Positions 2,630-63,706 are shown, counted from the first letter of the stretch. The stretch is DNA of 64,000 bases from Collinsella sp. An268 (GCF_002159765.1 NZ_NFJH01000006.1:1-64000), one strand, 5' to 3'. A program made the numbers and translations. The notes: generated from the sequence alone by a model not told the origin.

Positions 2630-3103
2630 ATGGCCCAGAAGGCCTGCAGCCTGTCGCACACGAAGTGGCCGTGCAGGTACCGCATCGTGTTCACGCCGAA
2701 GTATAGAAGGAAAGTCATCTACAACCAAACCAGGTCCGACCTGGGGGAGATATTCAGGAAGCTCTGCCAGTACAAGGGGATCGAGATCATCGAGGGGCAC
2801 CTGATGCCCGACCACGCGCACATGCTGCTGGCGATACCGCCGAAGTGCAGCGTCGCGAGCGTGATGGGCTACCTGAAGGGGAAAAGCCCGCTGATGACAT
2901 TCGACCGGCACGCGAACATGAAGTGCAAGTTCGGCAACAGGAAGTTCTGGTCGGCGGGTTACTACGTGTCGACCGTCGGGCTGAACGAGGCGACGGCCGC
3001 GAAGTGCATACGCGAGCAGGAGAAGGCGGACATCGCGCTGGACCGGCTGAGCGTCAAGGAGCACGGGGACCCGTTCTCGAGGGGTCCCAAGAAGAGGGGC
3101 TAG
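2630..3103 (+). CDS. tnpA: IS200-family Y1 transposase TnpA
   Basis: The 157-aa product has the expected length and landmarks of IS200/IS605 TnpA, an HUH single-strand transposase. The metal-binding HUH motif is seen as MPDHAHMLLAIPP near residue 64 and the catalytic tyrosine lies in the segment AGYYVSTVG near residue 105. The N-terminal YRIVFTPKYRRKVIY and the C-terminal IREQEKADIALDRL are typical of the family. The frame is intact from ATG 2630 to TAG, so the copy may be functional. It acts as a dimer on hairpins at the element ends, cutting one strand through a 5'-phosphotyrosine link. A short open extension upstream of ATG 2630 runs through the left-end hairpin and is not part of the protein. 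Confidence 0.95.
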   Translation: MAQKACSLSHTKWPCRYRIVFTPKYRRKVIYNQTRSDLGEIFRKLCQYKGIEIIEGHLMPDHAHMLLAIPPKCSVASVMGYLKGKSPLMTFDRHANMKCKFGNRKFWSAGYYVSTVGLNEATAAKCIREQEKADIALDRLSVKEHGDPFSRGPKKRG

Positions 3104-3442
3104 CGCCGGTTTGACCGGCTGGCCGCGAGTCAAGATGCCGTGCGGCCTGAACAGCGTGAAGGCCGGCGCCTTTAGACGCGGGCCGGCATTCCGAGGGTTA
3201 TACCCTAAGAGCAAACCACCCCTTTTAGGGGTGGTTCTGATTGCGCACCGCAATTGAACTGCTTCACTTTTTATCCAACCGGTTTTGGGCGACTTTCCCG
3301 CTGAATCTGTCGCAAACCTGACCGGCGTGTCAGATCTGCGCACAGCGATTGGTTGGATGCCGCACCGACTTTCTGAGATTGTGCCCAAGAGCACGCACAT
3401 CCGCTCTGAGAATGAAGCCAGGGGAGCCGGACGGAGGCTCGG
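3104..3442 (+). other. Intergenic region: IS right end and leader of the Tad operon
   Basis: No gene is visible. The first 135 bases are the GC-rich right end of the IS200 element, closing with the hairpin at 3214-3236. The rest (3241-3442) is less GC-rich and must hold the Tad operon promoter, but I see no convincing -35/-10 pair. An 8-base inverted repeat, ATCCAACC (3273-3280) and GGTTGGAT (3351-3358), is present with no clear meaning. Confidence 0.5.
3214..3236 (+). repeat. IS200 right-end hairpin
   Basis: AACCACCCC (3214-3222) and GGGGTGGTT (3228-3236) form a perfect 9-bp stem with a 5-base loop, TTTTA. It lies 111 bases after the transposase stop and is the probable right-end recognition hairpin. 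It could also stop transcription running out of the element, although it lacks a good T-run. Confidence 0.7.
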
Positions 3443-4207
3443 GTGCGGGAAAGGCGGGTGCGAAGCGTGAGACGAACCACCAAATTGCTGCTGAGCGTTG
3501 CTTCGGGAGTGCTCGCTTGCGTCGTGGCCCTCTGGTACGGCTCCTCGGTGCGCGCGGAAGCGGAGCAGATGCGGCAGGAGGCCCTCGCGGCTTACGGGGG
3601 CGATCTGGTGAGCGTGTGCGTCGCGACGCGCGACGTCGATGCCGGCGAGGTGTTGAGCGAGGCGAATGTTCATGTCGAGGAGTGGGTGGCGAGTCTGCTT
3701 CCGGAAGATGCGGAAACCTCGCTCGACAACCTCGTCGGCGAGCGCGCGACATCGGCTATCCCGGCCCGTGCGGTTATCAGCCCCGTTTATCTCGAGCGGG
3801 GCGACGGCGCCATCGAGGTGCCGGCGGGCACGGTGGCGGTTTCTGTCGCGGTGGACGAGGAGCATGCCGTGGGCGGCGCCTTGGCCGCGGGCGATGCGGT
3901 GGACGTGTACGTCTCCACCAACGGCGTCGCGGACCGCCTGTGCCGGGCGACGGTTATCGCGACGAGCGCCGAGGGCAGCGAGGCGGGTGGGGCGGCGATC
4001 AGCTGGGCCACGCTCGCCGTCGAGCCGGAGCGCGTGAGCGAGGTTCTTGCAGCGACGGCGCGCGGCTCGGTGAGTCTGACGCTGCCCGATGCGAAGCTGC
4101 CCGACGAGACGGATGCGGCGCCCGACGAGAGCGTCCCGGCGTCGGATGACGAGGCAGTGGAGGACGGCGGGGCGGCCGCTCCAGCCGATGAGGAAGGGGC
4201 TTCCTGA
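3443..4207 (+). CDS. cpaB: Flp pilus assembly protein CpaB/RcpC-like (SAF domain)
   Basis: A 254-aa protein with one N-terminal membrane anchor (about residues 12-32, LLLSVASGVLACVVALWYG), an SAF-like domain with the typical V-x-T-R-D-V-D-A-G-E-V-L core near residue 60 and a second domain around VAVDEEHAVGG...GDAVDVYVS. CpaB/RcpC proteins are periplasmic or extracytoplasmic parts of the Tad secretion machine. The C-terminus is an acidic disordered tail. GTG 3443 is chosen because GGAGG at 3433-3437 is 5 bases upstream; GTG 3458 and 3467 are in-frame alternatives. It is the first gene of the Tad operon, and its stop overlaps the next start (TGATGG). Confidence 0.88.
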   Translation: MRERRVRSVRRTTKLLLSVASGVLACVVALWYGSSVRAEAEQMRQEALAAYGGDLVSVCVATRDVDAGEVLSEANVHVEEWVASLLPEDAETSLDNLVGERATSAIPARAVISPVYLERGDGAIEVPAGTVAVSVAVDEEHAVGGALAAGDAVDVYVSTNGVADRLCRATVIATSAEGSEAGGAAISWATLAVEPERVSEVLAATARGSVSLTLPDAKLPDETDAAPDESVPASDDEAVEDGGAAAPADEEGAS

Positions 4208-5676
4208 TGGAAACGATTTGGCTTGCCTGCTGTGCGTGCGAGGCCTACCCCCAGATTCAGCGCGAGATCGCGGCGCGCTCTCCTCAGGCGAAGATCATGC
4301 GGGTCGACGGCGCCGCGTCGCTCGCGACGGTGGTCTTGGCGTTCGCGCAGGCGGAAACAGAGGTCGGCGTGGCGGTTGCGGCATCGGGCGCGCGGGTGCT
4401 GGAGGCACTTGAGGCACTGCCCCGGGATACACCGGTGTGCCAGGTCATCGCGCTTTGCCCCGAGACGGACGCCGCGCTCGCCGCGCGGTTGTTCCAGGCG
4501 GGTGCAACCGAGGTCATCGCGGGAGCGAGGGCGCTTCCAGACGATAGCGAGGAAGAGGAACGTGCGGAGACGGAGCGCGTCGCAGGCGCGCCCGCGCGGC
4601 CGCGCGCCTGCGATGAGGAAGCGTTCGGGGCGCCCCATGGTGACATGCGGATGGCTTCTCCTCCGGAGGAGGCCGTCGCGGAGGCGGTGCCCCGGGCGCT
4701 GGCCGGTGCGGGTTCCTTTGCGGATGATTTGGACGAACCGGAGCGGACGGGGGTTGCCGAGCCGGTTGTCGCCGAGGTGATACCCCGCCGGGGGCACGCG
4801 ACCCGTTGCGAGGATGTTCCCTCCACGGAGGAGAGCGCTCCTGCGGCGCCGTTGGTGACGCTCATCTCGGGGCGCGGCGGATGCGGCAAGACCACGCTGG
4901 CGGGCGCGATGGCGCTCAGGGCCAGTGCGCGGGGCCTGCGGTGCGCGCTCATCGATCTCGACCTCATGTTTGGCAACCTCTACGCGCTCTTGGGGGTTGA
5001 GGAGCCCCGCGATGCAGCGCCGCTGGCAGCCGCTGTCTCCCTGGGGGCCCTGACCGAGGGCGAGCTGGTGCGCGCCTCCATGCGGGTGGGGCCCGGCCTC
5101 ACGCTCTGGGGTCCCGTGCAGGCGCCCGAGCAGGCGGAGCTTATGGGGCCCGTGGTAGACGAGCTCATACCCCTGCTGCGCCGAGAGGCAGACCTCATCA
5201 TCGTGGACACGTCGGTCACGTGGACCGATGCCGTGGCGGCGTCGGTTGCCGCCTGCGACCGGTGCCTGGTGGTGGGCGACGACAGGGTGGGTGCGACGGC
5301 GGCCGCCGAGCGCGCGATCGATCTGGCGGCACGCATCGGCGTCTCCCGCACCAAGATGGTGAGCGTCTTCAACCGGTGCTCGTCGCGCGAGGGCGCCGAG
5401 GATGCCGCCGCGCGCTTCGAGTTTACGACGGCGCTCGGCATGAAGGCGCGTATCGACGAAGGGGGTTCGGATTTGCCGGGGCTCGCAGCGGTCGGACGGC
5501 TCGACCGGGTGCTCGCTCAGCCCGGGGCGTTTCAGGCGAGCGTGTGCGCCCTCACCGACACCCTGCTCGGCGAGCTCGGCTGCGTCGGCGCGGCGGACGA
5601 TGCGCCGGCCGCTCCCGCCGAGCCGCGCGTGCGCATCCGCCTTCCCTGGAAGCGGGGAGGGGGATGGGAGCCATGA
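4207..5676 (+). CDS. tadZ: Tad pilus ATPase TadZ/CpaE-like (MinD/ParA family)
   Basis: The 489-aa protein has an N-terminal receiver-like region without an obvious phosphoacceptor, a long acidic Ala/Pro/Glu-rich linker (about residues 115-215) and a MinD/ParA-type P-loop domain with the deviant Walker A GRGGCGKTT near residue 222. DLDLMFGNLYALLGVEE and IIVDTSVTWTDAVA (Walker B and switch regions) follow. TadZ/CpaE proteins localise the Tad machine to the cell pole or to specific sites. It starts at the stop of cpaB and its end overlaps tadA by four bases, so the genes are translationally coupled. The family call is firm; the localising role is inferred from homologues. Confidence 0.93.
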   Translation: METIWLACCACEAYPQIQREIAARSPQAKIMRVDGAASLATVVLAFAQAETEVGVAVAASGARVLEALEALPRDTPVCQVIALCPETDAALAARLFQAGATEVIAGARALPDDSEEEERAETERVAGAPARPRACDEEAFGAPHGDMRMASPPEEAVAEAVPRALAGAGSFADDLDEPERTGVAEPVVAEVIPRRGHATRCEDVPSTEESAPAAPLVTLISGRGGCGKTTLAGAMALRASARGLRCALIDLDLMFGNLYALLGVEEPRDAAPLAAAVSLGALTEGELVRASMRVGPGLTLWGPVQAPEQAELMGPVVDELIPLLRREADLIIVDTSVTWTDAVAASVAACDRCLVVGDDRVGATAAAERAIDLAARIGVSRTKMVSVFNRCSSREGAEDAAARFEFTTALGMKARIDEGGSDLPGLAAVGRLDRVLAQPGAFQASVCALTDTLLGELGCVGAADDAPAAPAEPRVRIRLPWKRGGGWEP

Positions 5677-7010
5677 GCGTGCGGGAACGTATGCGCCGCG
5701 CGGCAGAGGGCTCGCCGCGCCAGGCGGGTCGATCTCAGGCGGTGGTGCAGCGCCGTGCGCTCGTGAGCGCTGTCAAGCGCGACGCCATCGCCCGCGTGGG
5801 CTTTGACGAGATGGTGCGCATCGTGGGCGGCGACGAGCCCGAGCGCTCGCGAGCCGAGCTGCGCCCCGCCGTCGAGGCGATGGTGAACGCGCAGGGCCTC
5901 TTCGAGTTCGACCGCGCTCTGCGCGGGCGGGTTATAGAGGGCGTCATCGACGATATCGTCGGGTTGGGTCCGCTCCAGCCCCTGCTCGACGACGATACGG
6001 TGAGCGAGATCATGGTCAACGGGTGCCGTTCCGCCTTCTTCGAGCGCCGCGGTGTGCTGTACCCCATGGAGAGCCTGTTTGAGAGCGACGAGCAGATCCG
6101 CATCCTTATCGACCGCATCGTCGCTCCGCTCGGGCGCCGCCTCGACGAGCGGAGTCCGCTCGTGAACGCGCGCCTCAAGAGCGGGTATCGCGTCAACGCG
6201 GTTATTCCGCCCATCGCCCTCGACGGCCCGATTCTCACCATCAGGAAGTTCTCCGATCGCATCACATCGCTTCGCGAACTCGTGCGCCTGGGCTCGCTTC
6301 CGGAGTGGTATGCCTGCCTGCTCTCGTGCGCGGTGTCGCTCAGGCAGGATCTTGCCGTGGTGGGGGGCACCGGTTCGGGTAAGACGACGCTTCTCAACGC
6401 GCTGTCGAGCGAGATTCCCACAGGGGAGCGCATCATCACCATCGAGGACGCAGCCGAGCTCAAGTTCTCGCGGCACCCCCATGTGGTGCGTCTCGAGGCG
6501 CGCGAGGCATCGATCGAGGGCGAGGGCGCGGTCACCATCCGCGACCTGGTGGCCAACGCGCTGCGCATGCGGCCCGACCGTATCGTGGTTGGCGAGGTGC
6601 GCGGCGGCGAGGCGATCGACATGCTGAGCGCCATGCAGACGGGTCACGACGGCTCGCTCACCACGCTGCACGCGGGGAGCGAAGAGGAGGCGGTGGTGCG
6701 CCTGACGCTTTTGGCACGCTACGGCATCAACCTGCCGTCGGAGCTCATCGAGGAGCAGATCGCCCTTGCGCTCGACGGCATCGTCATGTCCGAGCGCCGC
6801 CCCGATGGCCGCCGGTTCGTATCGACCTATTCGGGCGTGTCACGCGCACCCGGCGGGGGCGTCGCGCTCGAGCGCTACGTCTCCTTCGACCGTGCCACGG
6901 CGACATGGCGCCTTGAGCGCGAGCCGCCGTTTATCGCGCGGGCACTCGAGGCGGGCACGCTGAGCGAGGAGGAGGTGGCGCAATGGAGGAGCTCATGCCC
7001 TGGGGAGTAG
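5673..7010 (+). CDS. tadA: Tad pilus assembly ATPase TadA/CpaF
   Basis: This is the secretion ATPase that powers assembly of the Flp pilus as a cytoplasmic hexamer. Of its 445 aa, the N-terminal part (about residues 20-150) is the CpaF-type all-alpha and N2 region with GLGPLQPLLDDDTVSEIMVN. The C-terminal RecA-like domain has Walker A GGTGSGKTT near residue 229, an Asp box (IEDAAEL), Walker B RIVVGEVRGGEA near residue 300 and a His box (TTLHAGS). ATG 5673 overlaps the tadZ stop (ATGA) and has GGGAGG 12 bases upstream; ATG 5664 is the alternative. It overlaps tadB by 28 bases. Confidence 0.97.
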   Translation: MSVRERMRRAAEGSPRQAGRSQAVVQRRALVSAVKRDAIARVGFDEMVRIVGGDEPERSRAELRPAVEAMVNAQGLFEFDRALRGRVIEGVIDDIVGLGPLQPLLDDDTVSEIMVNGCRSAFFERRGVLYPMESLFESDEQIRILIDRIVAPLGRRLDERSPLVNARLKSGYRVNAVIPPIALDGPILTIRKFSDRITSLRELVRLGSLPEWYACLLSCAVSLRQDLAVVGGTGSGKTTLLNALSSEIPTGERIITIEDAAELKFSRHPHVVRLEAREASIEGEGAVTIRDLVANALRMRPDRIVVGEVRGGEAIDMLSAMQTGHDGSLTTLHAGSEEEAVVRLTLLARYGINLPSELIEEQIALALDGIVMSERRPDGRRFVSTYSGVSRAPGGGVALERYVSFDRATATWRLEREPPFIARALEAGTLSEEEVAQWRSSCPGE

Positions 7011-7933
7011 GGGCGCTGACCGCCGTCTCCGTGCGCGCTGCACTCGACATCGCCTCGCCCGCAGGCTCCCGCCGCGGTGAGGGGAGGGTGCACTCCGACG
7101 TGCTGCGTCTGCGCGCGCTTGCGCTCGCCCGGCGCCTGGGCGGATGGGTGCACGTGCCGGCGCGGGTCGAGCGGGTGGTGGACGCGTGGGCCGCTGAGGC
7201 CGCGCATCTGGCGGCGCCGCTTGTAGGGCCGGCCGCGCGCGAGCGCACCGCTGCGCGCGGAACGCTCTACCTGCAGGTGGCCGCGGGGGCGCTTCTGGGC
7301 TTTGTCGTCGCGCTCTCGCCCTGGGGTCTTCTGGTGGGGGCGGTTGCCCCCGCGGCGGTCTGCGCCTCCCGCGCGGCGCGCCGTGCGCGCGAGACTGCCC
7401 GGCGCGTCGAGGCGGCCATGCCCGAGGCCTTCCAAGCGCTCGCCATCTCGCTGGGGTCGGGGCATTCTCTGGCGCAGGCGCTGCGCTTCGTGGGGGCGCA
7501 CGCCGAGGAGCCTCTTCGGTCGGCGTTTCTCGAGGCCTCGCTCGAGATCACGTGCGGCGTGCCCGCGCATGAGGCCCTGCAGGAGCTGCTGCGCCGCCTG
7601 CCGGCGCCGGGGCTCGGCCTCGTGACGACGGCGCTCGCGGTCTCGCAGCGCACGGGCGCCCCCTTGCGCGATCTGCTCGGCCGTGCCGCCGGCATGGTGG
7701 GGGAGCGCATTGAGCTTGCGCGCCGGTTGGAGGTCAAGACCGCGCAGGCACGTCTCTCGGCACGGCTCGTGACGGCGATGCCCGTGGTGCTCATGGGCGC
7801 CCTGACGCTGCTCTCGCCGGATTTCCGGGCGGGCATCGCGTCTGTCGCCGGGGCGCTTTCCGTGGTGGTCGCGCTGGCGCTCGATGCCGTCGCGTGGCTC
7901 ATCATCCGCAAGATCATGGAGGTGAAGGTGTGA
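6983..7933 (+). CDS. tadB: Tad pilus inner-membrane protein TadB (GspF-like)
   Basis: A 316-aa integral membrane protein with the type II secretion F domain: EAFQALAISLGSGHSLAQAL near residues 148-167 and the second helix bundle with LARRLEVKTAQARLSARLV. Hydrophobic segments occur near residues 88-120, 263-280 and 290-310. With TadC it forms the inner-membrane platform on which TadA acts. The start overlaps the end of tadA, and the stop TGA 7931-7933 overlaps the tadC ATG. Only the order TadA, TadB, TadC separates it from TadC by name; the two are distant paralogues. Confidence 0.93.
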   Translation: MEELMPWGVGALTAVSVRAALDIASPAGSRRGEGRVHSDVLRLRALALARRLGGWVHVPARVERVVDAWAAEAAHLAAPLVGPAARERTAARGTLYLQVAAGALLGFVVALSPWGLLVGAVAPAAVCASRAARRARETARRVEAAMPEAFQALAISLGSGHSLAQALRFVGAHAEEPLRSAFLEASLEITCGVPAHEALQELLRRLPAPGLGLVTTALAVSQRTGAPLRDLLGRAAGMVGERIELARRLEVKTAQARLSARLVTAMPVVLMGALTLLSPDFRAGIASVAGALSVVVALALDAVAWLIIRKIMEVKV

Positions 7934-8568
7934 TGGCAGGGCTGTTGTGGGGAGCCGCGGCGGTGGGCGCGGGCACCTCGGCCGCTGTGGGGGCATGGCT
8001 GTCGTGGCGGGCGGACGAGCTGCGGTGGCTGGGCCATCGCGTCCGCGACGAGCTCCGTGTGCTCGGGGCGCTGCTCGAGCGCACGGCACATCGTCTGGCG
8101 CGCCCCCAAGACCCCGATGATGCCCGGGTGTCCCTCTCAGAGGTCTCCGAGATGATCGATGTTGTCAATCTGGGGCTCTCCGCGGGGCTCTCGTTCGATG
8201 CGGCGCTCGAGCTCTACGGCGCTTCGCGGCACACCCCGCTTGCCAGGGAGATGATGCGCGCGCTTTTGCTGTGGCGCATCGGGGCGGGGACGCGCGAGGA
8301 GGAGCTGACGGCGGTTGCGCGCCGCGTTCATATGAAGGTGCTGGAATCGTTTGCCGTGGCCGTCTCAGAGGCCATCGCGCTCGGCGCGCCCCTGGCGGAG
8401 ACGCTCGCCGCCCAAGGGCGCGAGATTCGCGCGGCGCATCGTGCGGAGATCGAGCGCGCTATCGAGCAGGCGCCGGTAAAGCTCCTGATACCTACCGGCA
8501 CGCTTATCCTGCCGGCGCTGCTGCTGTCCATATTGGGGCCGTTCGTCGCGGCGAGCGGCATGTGGTGA
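7933..8568 (+). CDS. tadC: Tad pilus inner-membrane protein TadC (GspF-like)
   Basis: The 211-aa product is the second GspF-type platform protein. An N-terminal membrane helix (about residues 3-22) is followed by an amphipathic region, then the conserved EMIDVVNLGLSAGLSFDAALELYG block and a C-terminal hydrophobic hairpin (LLIPTGTLILPALLLSILGP). It is shorter than TadB and has no long cytoplasmic N-terminus, as is common in TadC. ATG 7933 overlaps the TadB stop, so translation is coupled. GTG 7930 is in frame but is a poorer fit. Confidence 0.93.
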   Translation: MAGLLWGAAAVGAGTSAAVGAWLSWRADELRWLGHRVRDELRVLGALLERTAHRLARPQDPDDARVSLSEVSEMIDVVNLGLSAGLSFDAALELYGASRHTPLAREMMRALLLWRIGAGTREEELTAVARRVHMKVLESFAVAVSEAIALGAPLAETLAAQGREIRAAHRAEIERAIEQAPVKLLIPTGTLILPALLLSILGPFVAASGMW

Positions 8569-8579
8569 GGAGGTCAACC

Positions 8580-8825
8580 ATGGGAAGAGGATCTATGTAT
8601 GTCGGTCGATATCTTGAGGGCTGGGCGCAGCGCTTCCGTACGGGGGTGGCGCGCGTCCGGGAAGATGCGTGTCGGCTCGCGCGGGAGGAGAGCGCACAGG
8701 GGACCACAGAGTACGCCATCCTCGTCGGCGTGCTCGTCGTGATCGCCATCATCGCCATCGTCGCCTTCCGCGACCGCGTGAGCGAGCTGTGGCAGGCGAT
8801 CTCGGACGGCATCAACAGCTTGTGA
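8580..8825 (+). CDS. flp: Flp-like type IVb pilin (81 aa)
   Basis: This is a small prepilin. A 40-residue basic/acidic leader ends in A-Q-G-T-T-E-Y, followed by a strongly hydrophobic helix AILVGVLVVIAIIAIVAF and a short tail. In Flp pilins the prepilin peptidase cuts so that Glu is at mature position +5; here that places the cut after Ala (A|QGTTEY). GAGGAGGTC lies a few bases upstream of ATG 8580. It is the best candidate for the major pilus subunit because it directly follows tadC, but the second small pilin at 9408 has equal claim. The leader is longer than usual for Flp (commonly 10-25 residues). The stop overlaps the next gene. Confidence 0.85.
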   Translation: MGRGSMYVGRYLEGWAQRFRTGVARVREDACRLAREESAQGTTEYAILVGVLVVIAIIAIVAFRDRVSELWQAISDGINSL

Positions 8826-56958: not shown

Positions 56959-57035
56959 GTTTGCGACATCAGAGCCATCGCTTGTTACCACAAGCGTTTC
57001 AAGCGCGTTTCCACGGGACTGCCCGATGGTACGAT
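56959..57035 (+). promoter_or_regulatory. Candidate LytTR operator and promoter of the sensor operon
   Basis: GTTTGCGAC (56959-56967) and GCTTGTTAC (56980-56988) are related 9-mers with starts exactly 21 bases apart, the spacing used by LytTR/AgrA regulators. A promoter TTTCCA (57008-57013), 16 bases, TACGAT (57030-57035) follows, about 54 bases before the regulator ATG. The same kind of pair occurs at 61079. Confidence 0.6.
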
Positions 57036-57088: not shown

Positions 57089-57898
57089 ATGTACTCTGTT
57101 GCGGTTATCGAGAACGATGAGCGCGCCGCCGCCGAGCTCGTCCGTATGATCGAAGCGTCTTCCCTGGCGTCGCGGTTGACGTTTGCGGGCATGCGCCATG
57201 TTACGAGCACCGCATCCGGCGCTTCGTCTGCCGCGGCGGATGCGCCCGGCTCCGAGACTTCTGTGCGTGTTGAGTCCGGTCCTATCCCCGGCGGGGGCAG
57301 TGCCTCCGATGCCGCGCCGCTTCGGGTAACCGATCTCCCCGATATCCTCTTTGTGGACGTCAAGCTCGACCACGGCGCCAACGGCATCGAGCTCATTCAC
57401 CGCCTCATCCCGGCTGCAGCACCCGTGCAGGTTATCTACGTCTCGGCCTACCTCGAGTATGCTCCCGCCGCGTACCATACGCGCCACACGTGGTTTCTCT
57501 CCAAGCCCGTCAACCCCGCAGAGCTCGATGCGGCGCTCACCCGCGCCGTGGCGGCGCTCGATGCCGAGCGCTCTGAGCCGCTGCTTGTCCACCAGGGGTC
57601 GGCGCTCGTGCGCATCGCCCCGCATCAGGTGCGCTACGTGGAGAGCGACCGGCGCAAGGTGCGCATTCACGAACGCGACCGTGTGATCGAGACGTACGCG
57701 CGCATCTCCGACCTCGAGGCGCGTTTGCCCAAGCAGTTCGCCCGTTGCCACAAGAGCTTCCTCGTTAACCTCGCTTTTGTCTCCGAGCTGCACGGCCGCG
57801 AGCTCATCCTCGCGAGCGGCGAGCGCCTGCCGGTGAGCCAGCGCTGCCGCAAGTCTCTTGCCGACCGCCTTGTCGCCTTCATCGGGCGCTCGCTCTAG
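57089..57898 (+). CDS. LytTR-family response regulator (AgrA-like)
   Basis: A 269-aa regulator. The receiver begins Y-S-V-A-V-I-E-N-D-E with phosphoacceptor I-L-F-V-D-V-K-L near residue 90; an insertion rich in Ser/Ala/Gly (about 35-75) lengthens it. F-L-S-K-P-V-N supplies the conserved Lys. The C-terminal LytTR DNA-binding domain has RIAPHQVRYVESDRRKVRIH, F-A-R-C-H-K-S-F-L-V-N and LPVSQRCRKSL. ATG 57089 has GGGGGAGGGGG upstream. It is the first gene of the four-gene sensor operon; the next gene starts 12 bases later. Confidence 0.94.
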   Translation: MYSVAVIENDERAAAELVRMIEASSLASRLTFAGMRHVTSTASGASSAAADAPGSETSVRVESGPIPGGGSASDAAPLRVTDLPDILFVDVKLDHGANGIELIHRLIPAAAPVQVIYVSAYLEYAPAAYHTRHTWFLSKPVNPAELDAALTRAVAALDAERSEPLLVHQGSALVRIAPHQVRYVESDRRKVRIHERDRVIETYARISDLEARLPKQFARCHKSFLVNLAFVSELHGRELILASGERLPVSQRCRKSLADRLVAFIGRSL

Positions 57899-57909
57899 GG
57901 CCGGGGCAG

Positions 57910-58959
57910 ATGAACGGCGGGGTAGAGCAGGTTCTGGAGGCCATAAGCACGCTGGTGAGCGTGGCCATCACGCTCACGTTCGAAACCAACCTCGCGTACA
58001 CGTTGCCCATGCGTGGACGGCGTGCCTACCTGGTTGTGGCCTATCTTGGTGCGGTTGCGGTAATCGCGGTGAGAAGCGTGCTGCCACTGCTGAGTCAGCT
58101 CCACTTTGTCGTCTGTGCATTGCTGCTGCCGCTCGTGCTGCTGCGCGGCTCGCGCGGTCAGCGGCTCGTGGCGATCGCGTTGAATCTGGGGTTGCTCTTC
58201 ATGGGAGAGTTCCTCACGGCGGCGATGGTGCTGATCTTCGCCGGTGGGATGCCGTATACCTCGTTTGCTCATGAGCATGTGGTGGTCATGCTTGTCTTCC
58301 GGACGGTGTATTTGATGATGATGGTGGCGGGCGGACTTGGCATCCGGGCGTTTGTCGCACGGTGGACGCGTGGCGAACGGATCGACTTCGTGCTGCCCCG
58401 TTTTGCGCTGGGTGTTCTTCTGCATGTGTGCCTCGCTATCGGGTTCTACTACATACTGACTCTGCTCGCGATACCCGCTTCCGACCCGCTCTGCGTGGTG
58501 GGGATGCTGCTTTCCGTCTTTGCAGTGCCGCTCGACGCAGGCCTCCTCTGGAGCCTCGAACGGGCGCGTCGGGCGGCGGCCGCCGACGCGCGCGCACGCG
58601 TGGCGGGCGAGCGGCTGGAGGCGTGCCTCGCCCGCTACGGCCGTGTCTCGCGGGCGACGGTGCGCACGGCGCAGCTCCGCCACGACGCCCGGGCCCACCT
58701 GCAGGCCGTCGCCGCGCTCGTGGCAGAGGGAGACCCCGAGCGCGCCGGGGGCTACGCCCGCGAGATGGCGGCGCTCCTGCGCGCCGACGACTACGGCGCG
58801 TACGGCCTCTGGGACGAGGGCGGGGACGCGGAGGGCGAGCTGCCTCATGAGTCTGCCGTGGCTGGCGAGGAGAAGAGTAAGGTGACGGCCTTGTCGCCCG
58901 GCACGCACAAGGCCGATGGCCCCTCTCCTGAGCCGCAAGGCGGTGGCGGACCATGCTAG
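57910..58959 (+). CDS. Membrane sensor with AgrC-type His helix but no ATPase domain (A)
   Basis: A 349-aa protein. Residues 1-210 hold about six membrane segments with F-E-T-N-L-A-Y-T-L-P-M near the first loop. A coiled stretch (LERARRAAAADARARVAGER) and the dimerisation/phosphoacceptor helix Q-L-R-H-D-A-R-A-H-L-Q-A-V follow (His near residue 257), as in AgrC-type kinases (R-H-D-x-x-N-H-L). The protein then ends in an acidic, Ser/Pro-rich tail where the ATPase domain would be. It could receive phosphate from another kinase. The next gene overlaps it by seven bases and encodes a close paralogue. Confidence 0.85.
   Translation: MNGGVEQVLEAISTLVSVAITLTFETNLAYTLPMRGRRAYLVVAYLGAVAVIAVRSVLPLLSQLHFVVCALLLPLVLLRGSRGQRLVAIALNLGLLFMGEFLTAAMVLIFAGGMPYTSFAHEHVVVMLVFRTVYLMMMVAGGLGIRAFVARWTRGERIDFVLPRFALGVLLHVCLAIGFYYILTLLAIPASDPLCVVGMLLSVFAVPLDAGLLWSLERARRAAAADARARVAGERLEACLARYGRVSRATVRTAQLRHDARAHLQAVAALVAEGDPERAGGYAREMAALLRADDYGAYGLWDEGGDAEGELPHESAVAGEEKSKVTALSPGTHKADGPSPEPQGGGGPC
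58525..58839 (+). repeat. Direct repeat copy 1 (cytoplasmic module)
   Basis: This stretch is repeated at 59559-59873 (offset 1034 bases) without insertions or deletions and with about nine in ten bases identical by eye. It encodes the coiled coil and His helix of the two tandem sensors. The membrane-coding parts upstream are much less alike. Confidence 0.9.
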
Positions 58960-59978
58960 ATGACCTGTTGCAAGTGGCGAGCCTGTTGACGGGCACCCTC
59001 ATCGTCCTTGCGTGCGAGATCAATATCGCCACGGTGCTGCCCATGCGGCATCGGAGCGCTTACCTGGTACTCACCGGTGCGGGCGCATTCGTGGTGGCGG
59101 CTCTCACCGGGGTGGCGCCGCGGTTGGCGCAGGTCCATTTTGTGGTCTGCGGGCTGGTCTGCCCCTTCATGCTTCTCGAAGGCGCGGTGGGTGAGCGGTT
59201 CATCGGCATGGCGCTGTGCGTGGGATTGCTGTTTGCGGGCGAGTTTGCGGTGACGCTCGCTATGGTTCCCGTCGCCATTCAGCTGTCGTTTGCGGAGGTG
59301 ACGAGGGAGTGGGCAGCGCTGACGCTTGGCTGTCGCATATTTGACTTAGCGTTCAACATATGCGGCGGGTTCGCTGTCCGCGCGTTCATGAGGCACCACC
59401 TACGCGGGGACCAGATAGAGACCGTGGTTCCTCGATTCGCGCTCGCGACGCTGCTGGGCGTCGGCCTTGCCGCCGGGCTGTTCTACATCATCGTGATGGA
59501 GGGGTTAGTTGCTTCCGACCCCCTGAGCGTGATGAGCATCGCCCTCGCATCGTTGGTTGTCCCGCTGGACGCGGGCCTCCTCTGGAGCCTCGAGCGGGCG
59601 CGCCGAGCAGCGGCGGCCGACGCGCACGCACGCGTGGCGGGCGAGCGGCTGGAGGCGTGTCTCGCGCGGTACGGCCGGGTCTCGCGGGCGACGGTGCGCA
59701 CGGCGCAGCTCCGTCACGACGCCCGGGCCCACCTGCAGGCAGTCTCCGCCCTCGTGGCAGAGGGCGACCACGCCCGCGCAGAGGGCTACGCCCGCGAGAT
59801 GGCGGCGCTCCTACGCGCCGACGACTACGGCGCGTTCGGCCTCTGGGACGCGGACGGGGACGCGGCGGGCGAGGCGACGGTTTCGCCTGGTTCGCGCGCG
59901 GAGGACCTCCACGCTTCTGCCGACGCGGGTACAACTTCGAACAAGGATGGTGATACGGCATGCTCGTCGCAAGCCTAG
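58953..59978 (+). CDS. Membrane sensor with AgrC-type His helix but no ATPase domain (B)
   Basis: The 341-aa paralogue of the preceding protein with the same plan: six membrane segments (residues 1-205) starting L-A-C-E-I-N-I-A-T-V-L-P-M, then an almost identical coiled and His-helix module (Q-L-R-H-D-A-R-A-H-L-Q-A-V, His near residue 250) and a short Ser/Thr/Asp-rich tail without an ATPase. The membrane part has diverged strongly from copy A while keeping the same spacing, which suggests the two sense different signals or form a heterodimer. It overlaps copy A by seven and the next gene by 19 bases. Confidence 0.85.
   Translation: MLDDLLQVASLLTGTLIVLACEINIATVLPMRHRSAYLVLTGAGAFVVAALTGVAPRLAQVHFVVCGLVCPFMLLEGAVGERFIGMALCVGLLFAGEFAVTLAMVPVAIQLSFAEVTREWAALTLGCRIFDLAFNICGGFAVRAFMRHHLRGDQIETVVPRFALATLLGVGLAAGLFYIIVMEGLVASDPLSVMSIALASLVVPLDAGLLWSLERARRAAAADAHARVAGERLEACLARYGRVSRATVRTAQLRHDARAHLQAVSALVAEGDHARAEGYAREMAALLRADDYGAFGLWDADGDAAGEATVSPGSRAEDLHASADAGTTSNKDGDTACSSQA
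59559..59873 (+). repeat. Direct repeat copy 2 (cytoplasmic module)
   Basis: Second copy of the segment at 58525-58839. Differences are mostly third-position changes plus a cluster of about seven changes around 59765-59790. The identity falls off sharply upstream of 59559, as expected of gene conversion or of strong selection on this module only. Confidence 0.9.
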
Positions 59979-60964
59979 TGCTGGTTGCTGTGGCGATGGC
60001 GGCGGTTGCCGTTACCGCCGTGCCGCTCGCGCGCGGCCGCTACCAGCTGCCGCCTGCGCGCCGTGCGCTCGTGGCGCTCATTCCGCTGTGGCAGGTCGCG
60101 ATGATGGGCGTGAGCTTTGCTGCGGGGGCGTTGCGCGGTGCGGGCGTTGCGTGGGTTCCCCTCTGCGAGGTCATAGTGGCCGGCGTGGGGTTTGCCTGCG
60201 CGGCGTTTAACCCGCGGCTCTTCGCAGGTATCGAGCAGGCAGGCGCTCAGGACGTGGCGGCAGCTCGCGCGCAGGCGCTCGAGGAGCAGGTGGGCGTGCA
60301 GCAGGCCTATCTCGAGCAGGCGGAGCGCGCAGCCGTTGAGGCGGTGCGGAGCCGTCACGTGTATGCCGATGAGTTCGAGCGTATCGCCGAGGCGCTCGCG
60401 GCGGGAGACGTGCCCGGTGCCCTGGTGGCGGTTGAACGCACCGACGCGATGATTCCGCGCTCGGGCGGGAGGCTTTGCCAGCACCCCGTGGCGGACGCGC
60501 TGCTCAAAGCCAAGATGGCGCAGGCCGCGGGCGAGGACGTGGATCTTCAGGTGCATGCCGACGTGCCCTATGAGCTCGAGTTGTCCGACGCCGAGCTCTG
60601 CGCGGTGGTGTCCAACCTCGTCAACAATGCGATCGCGGCAGCGGCACGGGTGGCGGAAGCTGCAAGGAATCGCGATGCGGAAGATCTCGTACCGCCTCAG
60701 GTCGCCGTGACGATTGGCACGACGCGGGGGTATCTTGCGGTGCGCGTCGAGAACCCCTATCTCCCGGAGGAGGACGCAACCCTGCGGGAGCTTGCCGCGC
60801 CGCGTCGCACGCTGCGCCCGACGGAGCGCGTGCACAATCTGCCTCAGCACGGGTGGGGGCTCTCCATTGTGCGCGAGCTTGCCGAGCTGCGCCAAGGCTC
60901 GCTCAAGCTCGAGGTGGCGGACGGTCGCTTTCGGGCGGTCGCGCTGCTCAAGCTGGGGAAGTAG
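59960..60964 (+). CDS. GHKL sensor kinase with ATPase domain (AgrC-like)
   Basis: A 334-aa protein with three short membrane helices (residues 2-24, 35-60, 63-84), a coiled coil (95-130), an altered His helix (S-R-H-V-Y-A-D-E-F, no Asp after His), the helper motif HPVADALLKAKMAQAAGED and an HATPase_c domain: N-box ELCAVVSNLVNNAIAAA near residue 210 and G-box G-W-G-L-S-I-V-R-E-L near residue 297. It is the only gene of the three with an ATPase, so it may phosphorylate the His helices of sensors A and B in trans. It ends the operon. Confidence 0.9.
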   Translation: MLVASLVLVAVAMAAVAVTAVPLARGRYQLPPARRALVALIPLWQVAMMGVSFAAGALRGAGVAWVPLCEVIVAGVGFACAAFNPRLFAGIEQAGAQDVAAARAQALEEQVGVQQAYLEQAERAAVEAVRSRHVYADEFERIAEALAAGDVPGALVAVERTDAMIPRSGGRLCQHPVADALLKAKMAQAAGEDVDLQVHADVPYELELSDAELCAVVSNLVNNAIAAAARVAEAARNRDAEDLVPPQVAVTIGTTRGYLAVRVENPYLPEEDATLRELAAPRRTLRPTERVHNLPQHGWGLSIVRELAELRQGSLKLEVADGRFRAVALLKLGK

Positions 60965-61078
60965 CCGCAGCGTCGCCCTTTGCGTATCAGACGCTGCCGA
61001 CCCGCGGGTTTGCGGGACGTGCGGCGCGCGCTGTGGGCATTCCCAAGGTCTTGCGCGCCGTCTCTTTATCTCGTTGAC

Positions 61079-61107
61079 GATTTGTGACCCCGGGTGCTGC
61101 GTTTGTG
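61079..61107 (+). promoter_or_regulatory. Candidate LytTR operator of the LPXTG gene
   Basis: TTTGTGAC occurs at 61079-61086 and again at 61100-61107, starts 21 bases apart, the LytTR spacing. The sequences resemble the pair at 56959. A weak promoter TGGGAA (61115-61120), 17 bases, CAGAAT (61138-61143) follows. Confidence 0.7.
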
Positions 61108-61194
61108 ACAAATCGCTGGGAATCGACGGTGCTCCCGCGCAGAATGGACGCATTGCGCGTTGTCACGTGCCCATTGCTGCTTGGGAGGATGCAT

Positions 61195-62547
61195 ATGGCT
61201 GCTCATCGTTACGTTAAACCGTTCATTGTCGCCGGGCTCACCGGCGCCCTGTCGCTCGGCGCCCCCATGGCCGCGTTCGCTGAGGATGCCGTTGCTGCGG
61301 ATAATACCTCCGCGCCTGTGGTTGCCACCGCAACGCAGGAGGACGTGCTTTATGAGATCTGGGGCGTTTACAACGAGGCGGGCGCGTGCGTTGTTTACAG
61401 CAACACAGAGTGGCCATTGGGCGCCAATGATTATATGTTCCAGCTTCACCGGGTCGAGGGGTATGAGGACACCGTTATCACTGAAGGGGTGACCTTCTCC
61501 TCTGATAACGAGGACGTACTCTGGGTGGATCCTGAGGGCCTCAGCATGAGGACGGGCCCTGCCGGCTCTGCGCGGGTAACTGCTTATCTCAACGAAGTGG
61601 AGGTCGCGCATCTCGACTACACCGTCATCGACTATGTACCTGAGGATGCTGTGGGCTATGCCTTTAGCGGGTACGTGAGCGATTCGCGCGATGCGCTCAC
61701 GTTCTCGCCCGGTTCGCGCTACGAGCTGCAGTATTTCAAGGTCGCTCCAGCAAACGCCGCGGGCGAGGTTGTGGGCGATGAGGTCTCCAACAAGGTCGTC
61801 TACAGCTCGAGCGATAGCTCCGTGTTCCGCGTCAATGAGGCGTACGGTTACATCGAGGCGCTCAAACCCGGCACGGCGGACCTCATCGCCACGGTGTATG
61901 ACGAAGACGGAACGACCGTCTTGGGCACTGCTACGCTTTCCTACACCGTACGCAGCTATGAAAGTCTCATTGATGAGTCGATGGTGTTCGATCATTCAAT
62001 TCCTGGCGTGTCCGAAGATGTGCAATATACGTATGATGATCGCGGCAACGTAACAGGCATCTCCTACGATATGGCTAACGGTGCCGGTTCGTGCGCTGTT
62101 TTTCTGTGGACCGGCGCTAATGCCGAGGGCTCAAACGTTTCCTATTTGGGTTGCACCACCTCGTCAAGCAACGAAGCTGTGGTGAAGGTTACACGGGACG
62201 ATACTTACGGAGTCGACCGTCTTGAGTTCGTGGGAGTCGGAACGGCTACGGTGACCTTGGTGGGTACCTTCTCCGTCGATAACGGTGTGACTCGAAGCGG
62301 CTCAAGTGAAACGCGAACCGTGACGCGCACCATTGCGGTTACGGTGACCGATTCCTCTGCGCCGGCTGAGACCGAGCAGCCGAAGGACGAGCAGAAGCCC
62401 CAGGATACGACGGACAACAAGAACAAGTCCGATGGCGAGGGGCTGCCCGAGACGGGTGACCCGGCATTTGTCGCGATGGGGATCGCCGGCCTCGCGGGCG
62501 TCGGTGCCGTGGCTGCGGGCGTGCGCTCGCGCCGTCGTGAGGACTAG
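61195..62547 (+). CDS. LPXTG-anchored surface protein with Ig-like repeats
   Basis: A 450-aa cell-wall protein. Signal peptide residues 1-27 (K-P-F-I-V-A-G-L-T-G-A-L-S-L, cut after A-A-F-A). The mature part holds three beta-rich Big_2/bacterial-Ig-like units (VTFSSDNEDVLWVDPEGLSM, VVYSSSDSSVFRVNEAYGYI, LGCTTSSSNEAVVKVTRDDT). A Pro/Glu/Lys-rich linker leads to the sortase signal L-P-E-T-G near residue 415, a membrane helix and the tail R-S-R-R-R-E-D. ATG 61195 has GGGAGG 6 bases upstream; ATG 61189 is too close. Its AT content is higher than the neighbours'. It is probably controlled by the LytTR system just upstream. No sortase gene is in the window. Confidence 0.93.
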   Translation: MAAHRYVKPFIVAGLTGALSLGAPMAAFAEDAVAADNTSAPVVATATQEDVLYEIWGVYNEAGACVVYSNTEWPLGANDYMFQLHRVEGYEDTVITEGVTFSSDNEDVLWVDPEGLSMRTGPAGSARVTAYLNEVEVAHLDYTVIDYVPEDAVGYAFSGYVSDSRDALTFSPGSRYELQYFKVAPANAAGEVVGDEVSNKVVYSSSDSSVFRVNEAYGYIEALKPGTADLIATVYDEDGTTVLGTATLSYTVRSYESLIDESMVFDHSIPGVSEDVQYTYDDRGNVTGISYDMANGAGSCAVFLWTGANAEGSNVSYLGCTTSSSNEAVVKVTRDDTYGVDRLEFVGVGTATVTLVGTFSVDNGVTRSGSSETRTVTRTIAVTVTDSSAPAETEQPKDEQKPQDTTDNKNKSDGEGLPETGDPAFVAMGIAGLAGVGAVAAGVRSRRRED

Positions 62548-62633: not shown

Positions 62634-63476
62634 CTACCACGCCGCGCGAACCTGCTCGAGCACGCGCTCCATCGTCTCGTCGATCTTCTTGCGCTTGAGC
62701 TCGCACTCCCAGATGGTGATAACGGCCCATCCGGCTTCCTCGAGCGCCGCGACCGCCGCCTTGTCGCGCTCGACGTTGCGGCGGAACTTCGCCTCCCAAA
62801 ACTCGGTGTTGCGCTTGGGGACGCTCGGGTGGCAGTGGGGGCACCGATGCCAGAAGCAGCCGTTGATGAAGATCGCTATCTTGCGTCCGGGAAAGGCGAT
62901 GTCGGGGCGTCCCGGCGCCTTGGCCCACTGTAGGCGGTAGCCAGTGTATCCGGCGGCGCGTAGGCGCTGACGCACCAGAAGCTCGGGCTTGGTGTTGGCA
63001 CGCTTGTTGCCCTGCATGGACTTGCGGATGGCAGCCCGGCGACGCACCAGCTCCGCTTCGTCATCGTGCGCGGGAGCCGCGGCCAACGCCTCGACCAGCC
63101 CCTCGTCTGCCGGCATCCAGGCAAGACTTAAGAGCTCCCCGCGACCGACCCAGCGCAGGTCGAGCTGGCGGTCGGAGCGGGTGGGCTCGCCTGTGGCGAG
63201 GCGGCAGAAGAAGCACTCCATCGAGAGGTGGAAATCGGGATAGTCGTATTCGACGGTATAGAAGGCGCGGAGGTGCTCGACCGTGATACCGAGCTCCTCG
63301 GCGAGCTCGCGCTGGCAGGCGTCCTCGGCGGTCTCGCCGCGCTCGACCTTACCCCCGGGAAACTCCCAGAGACCGCGCATGTCACCGTAGCCGCGCTGCA
63401 CCGCAAGCACCTCGCCGGTGGCTGTGCCATCTTCCATGCGGCGGATGATGCCCGCTGCCACATGTACGGTTTTCAA
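62634..63476 (-). CDS. Fusion of Nudix hydrolase and Vsr-type endonuclease
   Basis: One 280-aa frame joins two repair domains. Residues 1-135 are a MutT-like Nudix hydrolase with the box G-G-K-V-E-R-G-E-T-A-E-D-A-C-Q-R-E-L-A-E (followed by E-L-G-I), complete for catalysis. Residues 150-280 are a very-short-patch-repair (Vsr) endonuclease: S-M-Q-G-N-K-R-A-N-T-K-P-E, G-R-P-D-I-A-F (metal-binding Asp) and N-G-C-F-W-H-R-C-P-H-C-H, then FWEAKFRRNVERD. MutT-type enzymes hydrolyse oxidised nucleotides; Vsr nicks at T:G mismatches. TTG 63476 has GGGAGG 7 bases upstream on the minus strand. No cytosine methylase gene is nearby. Confidence 0.92.
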   Translation of the reverse strand: MKTVHVAAGIIRRMEDGTATGEVLAVQRGYGDMRGLWEFPGGKVERGETAEDACQRELAEELGITVEHLRAFYTVEYDYPDFHLSMECFFCRLATGEPTRSDRQLDLRWVGRGELLSLAWMPADEGLVEALAAAPAHDDEAELVRRRAAIRKSMQGNKRANTKPELLVRQRLRAAGYTGYRLQWAKAPGRPDIAFPGRKIAIFINGCFWHRCPHCHPSVPKRNTEFWEAKFRRNVERDKAAVAALEEAGWAVITIWECELKRKKIDETMERVLEQVRAAW

Positions 63477-63706
63477 GGCGCACCTCCCATGCCGTGCGAC
63501 CGCCGCCGCAATCCGTCCGTCTCGCGTGCGCGCACGCCTCGCCTCACGCCGCATAGCTGTCCGCGCCCGCCAGCGCACTATGCTAGCAAAAGCACAAGCC
63601 AACGTTCAGGTTTTCTGTCCGGGCGAACCGGTATGATAGGGCGTAGACATTTCTGTGGCGTCGGCGCTGCTGGGGCGCCCGGCGCCTCTGCGAGAAAGGC
63701 TACGCG

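Follow-up and report, generated by a model that had tools for sequence, protein, structure and literature searches.

A putative split AgrC-type histidine kinase with two receptor subunits and a LytTR regulator in Collinsella sp. An268 and other Coriobacteriia

Gene content of the operon

We analyzed a 64,000-nucleotide stretch of DNA from Collinsella sp. An268 (NZ_NFJH01000006.1:1-64000; hereafter, the window), which has a GC content of approximately 67% and belongs to a genome of 2.37 Mb. ORF calling identified five genes, designated RR, A, B, C and S, all of them on the plus strand and at the positions first described in a sequence-only reading made without database searches (Table 1). RR and A are separated by 11 bp, A and B overlap by 7 bp and B and C by 19 bp, and 230 bp lie between C and S, for which the probable ATG start at 61195 is preceded by GGGAGG. 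The nearest named relatives of the C gene are found in ‘Collinsella’ sp. An7 and An307, uncultured Collinsella and Coriobacteriaceae, and Candidatus Coprousia avicola.

Table 1. Genes, domains and candidate operators of the operon, with positions counted from the first nucleotide of the window
Feature	Position	Strand	Basis or remark
Direct repeat TTTGCGAC-N13-CTTGTTAC, 21-bp period, candidate LytTR operator upstream of RR	56960..56988	+	
RR, REC-LytTR response regulator, 269 aa	57089..57898	+	Pfam LytTR 1.3e-20; REC 8e-7, just below cut-off
A, sensor subunit: about 7 TM helices, coil and DHp hairpin, no CA domain	57910..58959	+	
A, acceptor His258 codon	58681-58683	+	RHD invariant in sensor alignment
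B, second sensor subunit, architecture as A, no CA domain	58953..59978	+	
B, acceptor His255 codon	59715-59717	+	RHD invariant in sensor alignment
C, kinase subunit: 3 TM helices, coil, degenerate DHp and HATPase_c_5	59960..60964	+	Pfam
C, degenerate DHp	about 60272-60451	+	hhalign to A family over TM-coil-DHp
C, HATPase_c_5	about 60455-60961	+	Pfam; N-box Asn223 codon 60626-60628
Direct repeat TTTGTGAC-N13-TTTGTGAC, 21-bp period, candidate LytTR operator upstream of S	61081..61109	+	
S, secreted LPETG-anchored surface protein, candidate target gene	61195..62547	+	

It had been proposed from the sequence alone that A and B carry the histidine helix of AgrC-type kinases and then stop before the ATPase domain, and the ORFs, the Pfam scan and the stop points of their relatives all agree with this. 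The motif RHDARAHLQAV occurs in A and RHDARAHLQAVS in B, with the histidine at residues 258 and 255, respectively; the AgrC-type helix of both proteins reads LRHDARAHLQAV, and a short disordered tail then ends each of them. The Pfam scan matched no domain in either A or B, and among the operon proteins HATPase_c and HATPase_c_5 were matched in C alone (HATPase_c_5: E 4.3e-6, 27 bits against a cut-off of 22). The spacings of +11, -7 and -19 bp leave no space for a hidden ATPase after A or B, and the relatives of these proteins stop at the same point; a frameshift that conceals such a domain, which would have refuted the proposal, can therefore be ruled out. An assembly artefact was also ruled out, given that the same set recurs at a second locus of this genome and in dozens of others. 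C had been described as having a full HATPase domain, a shorter membrane part and an altered histidine helix, and this description is confirmed by the Pfam match, by the residues RHVYADEF at the place of the acceptor histidine, and by its predicted structure.

The structures of A and C were predicted as single chains with AlphaFold from alignments of 12-15 sequences (mean pLDDT 81-82). The model of A contains seven membrane-length helices, the last of which runs into the coil and DHp (193-272), followed by 276-302 and then disorder. The model of C contains helices 2-24, 32-58 and 65-147 (three of membrane length, the third being continuous with 65-147), and continues with a hairpin helix (151-164) and an alpha/beta CA fold. 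In a Foldseek search, the best solved match of C was the kinase module of Staphylococcus aureus AgrC (6e95 / 6e52), and nothing significant was obtained for A either by Foldseek or by a sequence search of the PDB. The predicted architectures of both proteins agree with the reading of their sequences; as single-chain models, they do not address pairing.

Distribution of the split set and complementary losses in its subunits

We then surveyed 350 genomes of the class, together with loci at the family level; the locus counts are lower bounds, only a few candidates having been scored per genome. At least 58 C-type proteins and at least five sensor-kinase fusions were annotated in 51 Coriobacteriia genomes representing three families. 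One to three DHp-only proteins lie adjacent to 54 of the 58 C-type proteins, most of which also adjoin a LytTR regulator; 52 of these cases were scored automatically and two (L184 and L186) were added on reading the ORFs. The remaining C-type genes comprise three at contig ends (L026, L037 and L119) and one orphan beside purN (L027). At the family level, a C-type gene was present in 12 of 67 genomes, and the sensor profile matched 11 genomes, each of which also has a C-type gene. The neighbour count that had been suggested for the sensors thus yields near-strict co-occurrence, and the split set is not a local accident. Most loci contain a single sensor, two sensors together with a regulator adjoin 12 C-type proteins in the automatic count, one locus (L124) has three sensors and one C-type protein, and another (L115) has four sensors and two C-type proteins. 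In the class of Flavonifractor (Clostridia; 291 genomes), no C-type protein was found among the matches read, which were either intact kinases (mostly 425-490 aa) or soluble DHp+CA kinases of approximately 220 aa, all of them with the acceptor histidine.

The second locus of the An268 genome (C24, L006) has the order RR'-A'-C'-B'-LPXTG surface protein, with the labour divided in the same way. Across this genome there are exactly two HATPase_c_5 proteins above threshold, C and C', and exactly four A-type sensors, all of which adjoin C or C'.

In the alignment of the A/B sensor family (A2), R-H-D is invariant. The A/B relatives terminate 34-110 aa past this motif, mostly at 34-54 aa, where the second DHp helix ends, and the early stop is therefore a feature of the family. 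Truncated proteins are common products of decay, and with one isolated C-type gene in existence (L027) it is conceivable that A and B represent decoys or truncated kinases in decay, within an AgrC system that has degenerated. However, the same truncation point and a conserved RHD are found in about 70 proteins from three families, the overlapping reading frames are intact, and the kinase subunits constitute one clade, so that we give decay next to no credence.

Next, we compared the residues of the two active sites. In the acceptor column, all 47 intact AgrC-like kinases, which come from Coriobacteriia and Clostridia, carry histidine. It occurs in only three of the 58 C-type proteins (C of the window, its 97% identical copy and L122) and in none of the five fusions, for which the second hairpin was considered; elsewhere among the C-type proteins, this column holds E, A, R, D, T and other residues. 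The residue that follows is acidic (D or E) in every one of the 47 intact kinases, whereas it is unconserved in the C-type proteins and Val in C. The N-box Asn and the nucleotide-lid (G-box) Gly are invariant in all C-type proteins. The Asn at H+4 is kept in 65 of 68 relatives, and is Ala in A and B of the window, a point that weighs against the split-kinase reading. In addition, an hhalign comparison matched residues 11-165 of C to the sensors over their last membrane segments, the coil and the DHp (probability 97, E 5e-11). Given that nearly all C-type proteins are without the histidine, that the sensors are without a CA domain and that C can be aligned with the sensors in this way, the subunits look, from these comparisons, like complementary halves of duplicated AgrC-like kinases: the sensor half appears to have lost the CA domain, and the C half the first membrane helices and the histidine.

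We also considered the possibility that C alone is the kinase, either autophosphorylating His133 or feeding the regulator directly, with A and B modulating it as activators or in a phosphatase-like manner. C of the window does retain an RH pair at the acceptor place (RHV) along with a full CA domain, and residual autophosphorylation of C is therefore not excluded. However, the rarity of the histidine among C-type proteins, the Val that replaces the acidic residue next to it, and the invariance of RHD in the sensors instead make this possibility improbable.

In five loci (L095, L112, L113, L117 and L123), a single chain combines the sensor with the kinase subunit in the architecture 6TM-DHp-3TM-CA, in which the RHD hairpin comes first and a His-less hairpin precedes the terminal CA domain. 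Fusion of separate proteins is standard evidence of their joint action. When CA domains were placed in a maximum-likelihood tree, those of the five fusions and of the 58 C-type proteins formed one group apart from the intact kinases, with an SH-aLRT support of 92, which is below the 95 mark, and the fusions were nested within the split clade. Because the C-type CA domains group together with the fusions inside, the split seems to go back to one ancient event, with re-fusion afterwards, probably more than once.

A proposed shared kinase subunit and its comparison with known systems

Taken with the second locus, the co-occurrence and the loss of the histidine, these fusions strongly support the earlier claim that the ATPase of C must serve the histidine of A or B, and so does the finding that C and C' are the sole above-threshold HATPase_c_5 proteins of the genome; the phosphotransfer itself is inferred. 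We consider it likely that the operon encodes an obligately split, HPK10-like kinase of the AgrC type, a proposal that draws on parts, conservation, co-occurrence, complementary losses, fusions and repeats documented at the sequence level. A and B would serve as two receptors with separate membrane input domains, each of them also contributing a coil and an acceptor-His DHp hairpin, and C would be a shared kinase subunit consisting of a short membrane anchor, a DHp-like hairpin without acceptor-His chemistry and an intact CA domain. Through their DHp helices, C and either A or B would form a mixed four-helix bundle (A:C or B:C), and upon a signal sensed by A or B, the CA domain of C would phosphorylate the histidine of that partner in trans. 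The phosphate would then pass to the Asp of the LytTR regulator, which would bind the repeats of 21-bp period that precede its own operon and the LPXTG gene S, and would activate or repress both. The physical complex, the phosphotransfer and its direction are inferences made without biochemistry.

Alternatively, A and B may be relays. In that case no stable mixed DHp bundle would form, and the CA domain of C would phosphorylate homodimers of A or of B, as CheA4 does with CheA3. Both proteins have complete hairpins and could homodimerise, and split CheA operates in this way (PMC3591291). However, C retains a homologous TM-coil-DHp segment rather than being a free CA domain, and the fusions hold both hairpins in one chain, which indicates pairing through the hairpins. 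A relay thus seems unlikely, although it carries more weight than the other alternatives, and the mixed bundle of C with A or B remains our preferred reading.

A and B are about 90% identical over the coil and DHp versus 30-47% over the membrane part, and at fourfold-degenerate sites 56 of 74 codons agree in the former versus 20 of 52 in the latter, a similarity of the coil and DHp such as gene conversion would leave. In the other pairs of sensors that were compared, protein identity showed this contrast too, though less strongly in some. This pattern fits receptors that sense different things yet must suit the same partner and regulator, the difference in signals being inferred. Because the membrane parts diverge, the DHp module is kept and one locus has three sensors with one C-type protein, the comparison supports the notion that two or more receptors can share one ATPase and one regulator. 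The sequence-only reading had suggested just such a convergence of two inputs on one ATPase; the hetero-oligomer that it envisaged is still an inference. A broader proposal is that a single pseudo-DHp CA subunit forms interchangeable heterodimers with one to three His receptors throughout the class, from a single origin, and that inputs are combined according to which receptor captures the ATPase; we regard this as about equally likely to be right or wrong.

Orthodox membrane sensor kinases are viewed as homodimers in which each chain has both the histidine and the ATPase, and complementation between half-dead kinase mutants is a classic laboratory trick. Such complementation has seemingly become fixed in nature throughout an order of gut bacteria, where several receptors go with one engine and re-fusions occur, and it offers a clean system in which to probe trans autophosphorylation, heterodimer specificity and the sharing of one kinase by several inputs. 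In the literature that we searched on split, bipartite or heterodimeric histidine kinases and on LytTR or AgrC in Coriobacteriia or Eggerthella, which largely left out subscription papers, the set is undescribed, as had been presumed from the sequence alone. It has been suggested from database counts that HisKA/HATPase splits might exist, and none was described in that 2013 report (PMC3591291). The criterion for a split kinase, namely that the acceptor histidine and the ATPase lie on separate proteins, is met here. Moreover, sensors of the A/B type escape annotation because neither Pfam nor NCBIfam gives a significant match.

The closest known case is split CheA, represented by CheA3/CheA4 of Rhodobacter sphaeroides (PMC3591291); Hik36/Hik43 of Synechocystis is likewise a split CheA-type kinase (PMC7656254). 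As in split CheA, the acceptor histidine and the ATPase are on different proteins, one of which phosphorylates the other, and the latter hands the phosphate to a regulator, a sequence of events that is inferred in our case. However, the histidine of CheA3/CheA4 and Hik36/Hik43 is on an HPt (P1) domain, whereas here it is of the AgrC type and on the DHp dimerisation helix, and the Pfam scan detected neither an HPt/P1 nor a CheW-like P5 domain in the operon proteins. CheA3/CheA4 are also cytoplasmic, whereas the His subunits of the present set are membrane receptors, possibly several per ATPase. The set resembles AgrC/HPK10 in its multi-TM receptor, RHDxxN helix, HATPase_c_5-type CA domain and LytTR regulator. 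AgrC/HPK10 is a single polypeptide, whereas two or three are involved here, and the earlier statement that no agrB-like gene is adjacent can be extended to the whole genome, in which AgrB (PF04647) had no match above the cut-off. Since sensor, DHp and CA are not in one polypeptide, the set may work like AgrC but is no ordinary member of that group. The network of the sensor kinases GacS, RetS and LadS (PMC5992135, PMC12189002) is similar in that different sensor kinases hetero-interact, which is inferred for the present set; those proteins are separate hybrid kinases that modulate each other, whereas here the histidine and the ATPase are divided and neither subunit is a complete kinase. The histidine kinase as such is familiar; an AgrC-type receptor that is stably divided into subunits which can be interchanged is not.

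The regulator, the operator-like repeats and the surface protein

The receiver Asp, Ser/Thr and Lys are conserved in all 48 aligned relatives of RR. The pattern YTTGYKAC-N13-YTTGYKAC has only two exact matches in the 2.37-Mb genome, upstream of RR and of S; because it was derived from these two sites, this count is a measure of specificity and not a discovery. A 9-12-9 geometry of direct repeats has been reported for LytTR proteins (PMC6193735), and the candidate operators of RR and S share this spacing. Among 40 non-redundant promoters of relatives, an offset of 21 was the best, but only modestly so, with 12 and 24 being nearly as frequent. We do not claim a one-mismatch site at C24:23939-23967, which is reversed and falls within the control count. 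RR probably controls its own operon and S, although this is inferred without binding data.

The LytTR Regulatory Systems (PMC6193735) likewise have a LytTR regulator beside a membrane protein and 9-12-9 repeats at the operon promoter, and these shared features, with repeats of the autoregulatory type, raise the possibility that the set acts without phosphotransfer, a membrane protein binding and inhibiting the LytTR regulator. However, those systems work without a receiver and a kinase, whereas here a kinase is present with its ATP site, the acceptor histidine is conserved, and the catalytic residues of REC are all present throughout the aligned relatives. There is thus only a very slight chance that phosphotransfer is absent, and the split kinase remains the preferred explanation.

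Finally, we examined the genes that follow related loci. A strict sortase-type gene was found downstream of just 11 of the 60 loci, which rules out the surface protein as a universal part of the set; a secreted or sortase-type gene follows roughly a third of them.

Residue at position His+4

In both A and B, the membrane sensor subunits that carry an acceptor His but no CA domain, His+4 is Ala (motif RHDARAH), whereas Asn occupies this position in 65 of the 68 DHp-only relatives. If the role of this Asn lies in phosphatase activity, as it does in other kinases, both subunits may be kinase-only receptors.

Sensors and kinases at other loci

The same genome carries a second complete split-kinase locus (RR'-A'-C'-B'-LPXTG protein), in which the gene order is rearranged relative to the window locus and the candidate repeat upstream of the regulator gene RR' differs from the window's. 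At L115, the DHp-only sensors number four and the C-type kinases (relatives of the kinase subunit C) two, but only a single LytTR regulator was detected. We also observed an orphan C-type gene (64% identity to the window's C) adjoining purN, with neither sensor nor regulator near it on this MAG contig. In Clostridia (L143, L151, L154, L155 and L160), soluble kinases of about 220 aa comprise an RHDYRN hairpin and a CA domain but have no membrane part; input would need another protein.

Operator-like site and neighboring ORF

The candidate LytTR operator pattern recurs with one mismatch, in reversed orientation; this copy may be a chance occurrence. It lies directly upstream of a long protein (995+ aa) that is predicted to be secreted and, by eye, looks LRR/BspA-like. 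Just downstream of the surface protein gene S, a single ORF appears by eye to join two domains, one NUDIX/MutT-like and the other resembling the Vsr (very short patch repair) endonuclease.

Locations of the features described
Feature	Locus	Position
Region with Ala at His+4, A	window	58678-58695
Region with Ala at His+4, B	window	59712-59729
ORF downstream of S	window	62634-63602 (-)
Second split-kinase locus	L006 (G000:C24)	2725-8753
Operator-like site	L191	5940-5968 (G000:C24:23939-23967)
Multi-sensor cluster	L115	G235:C16:10600-26800
Orphan C-type gene	L027/L072 (G001:C7)
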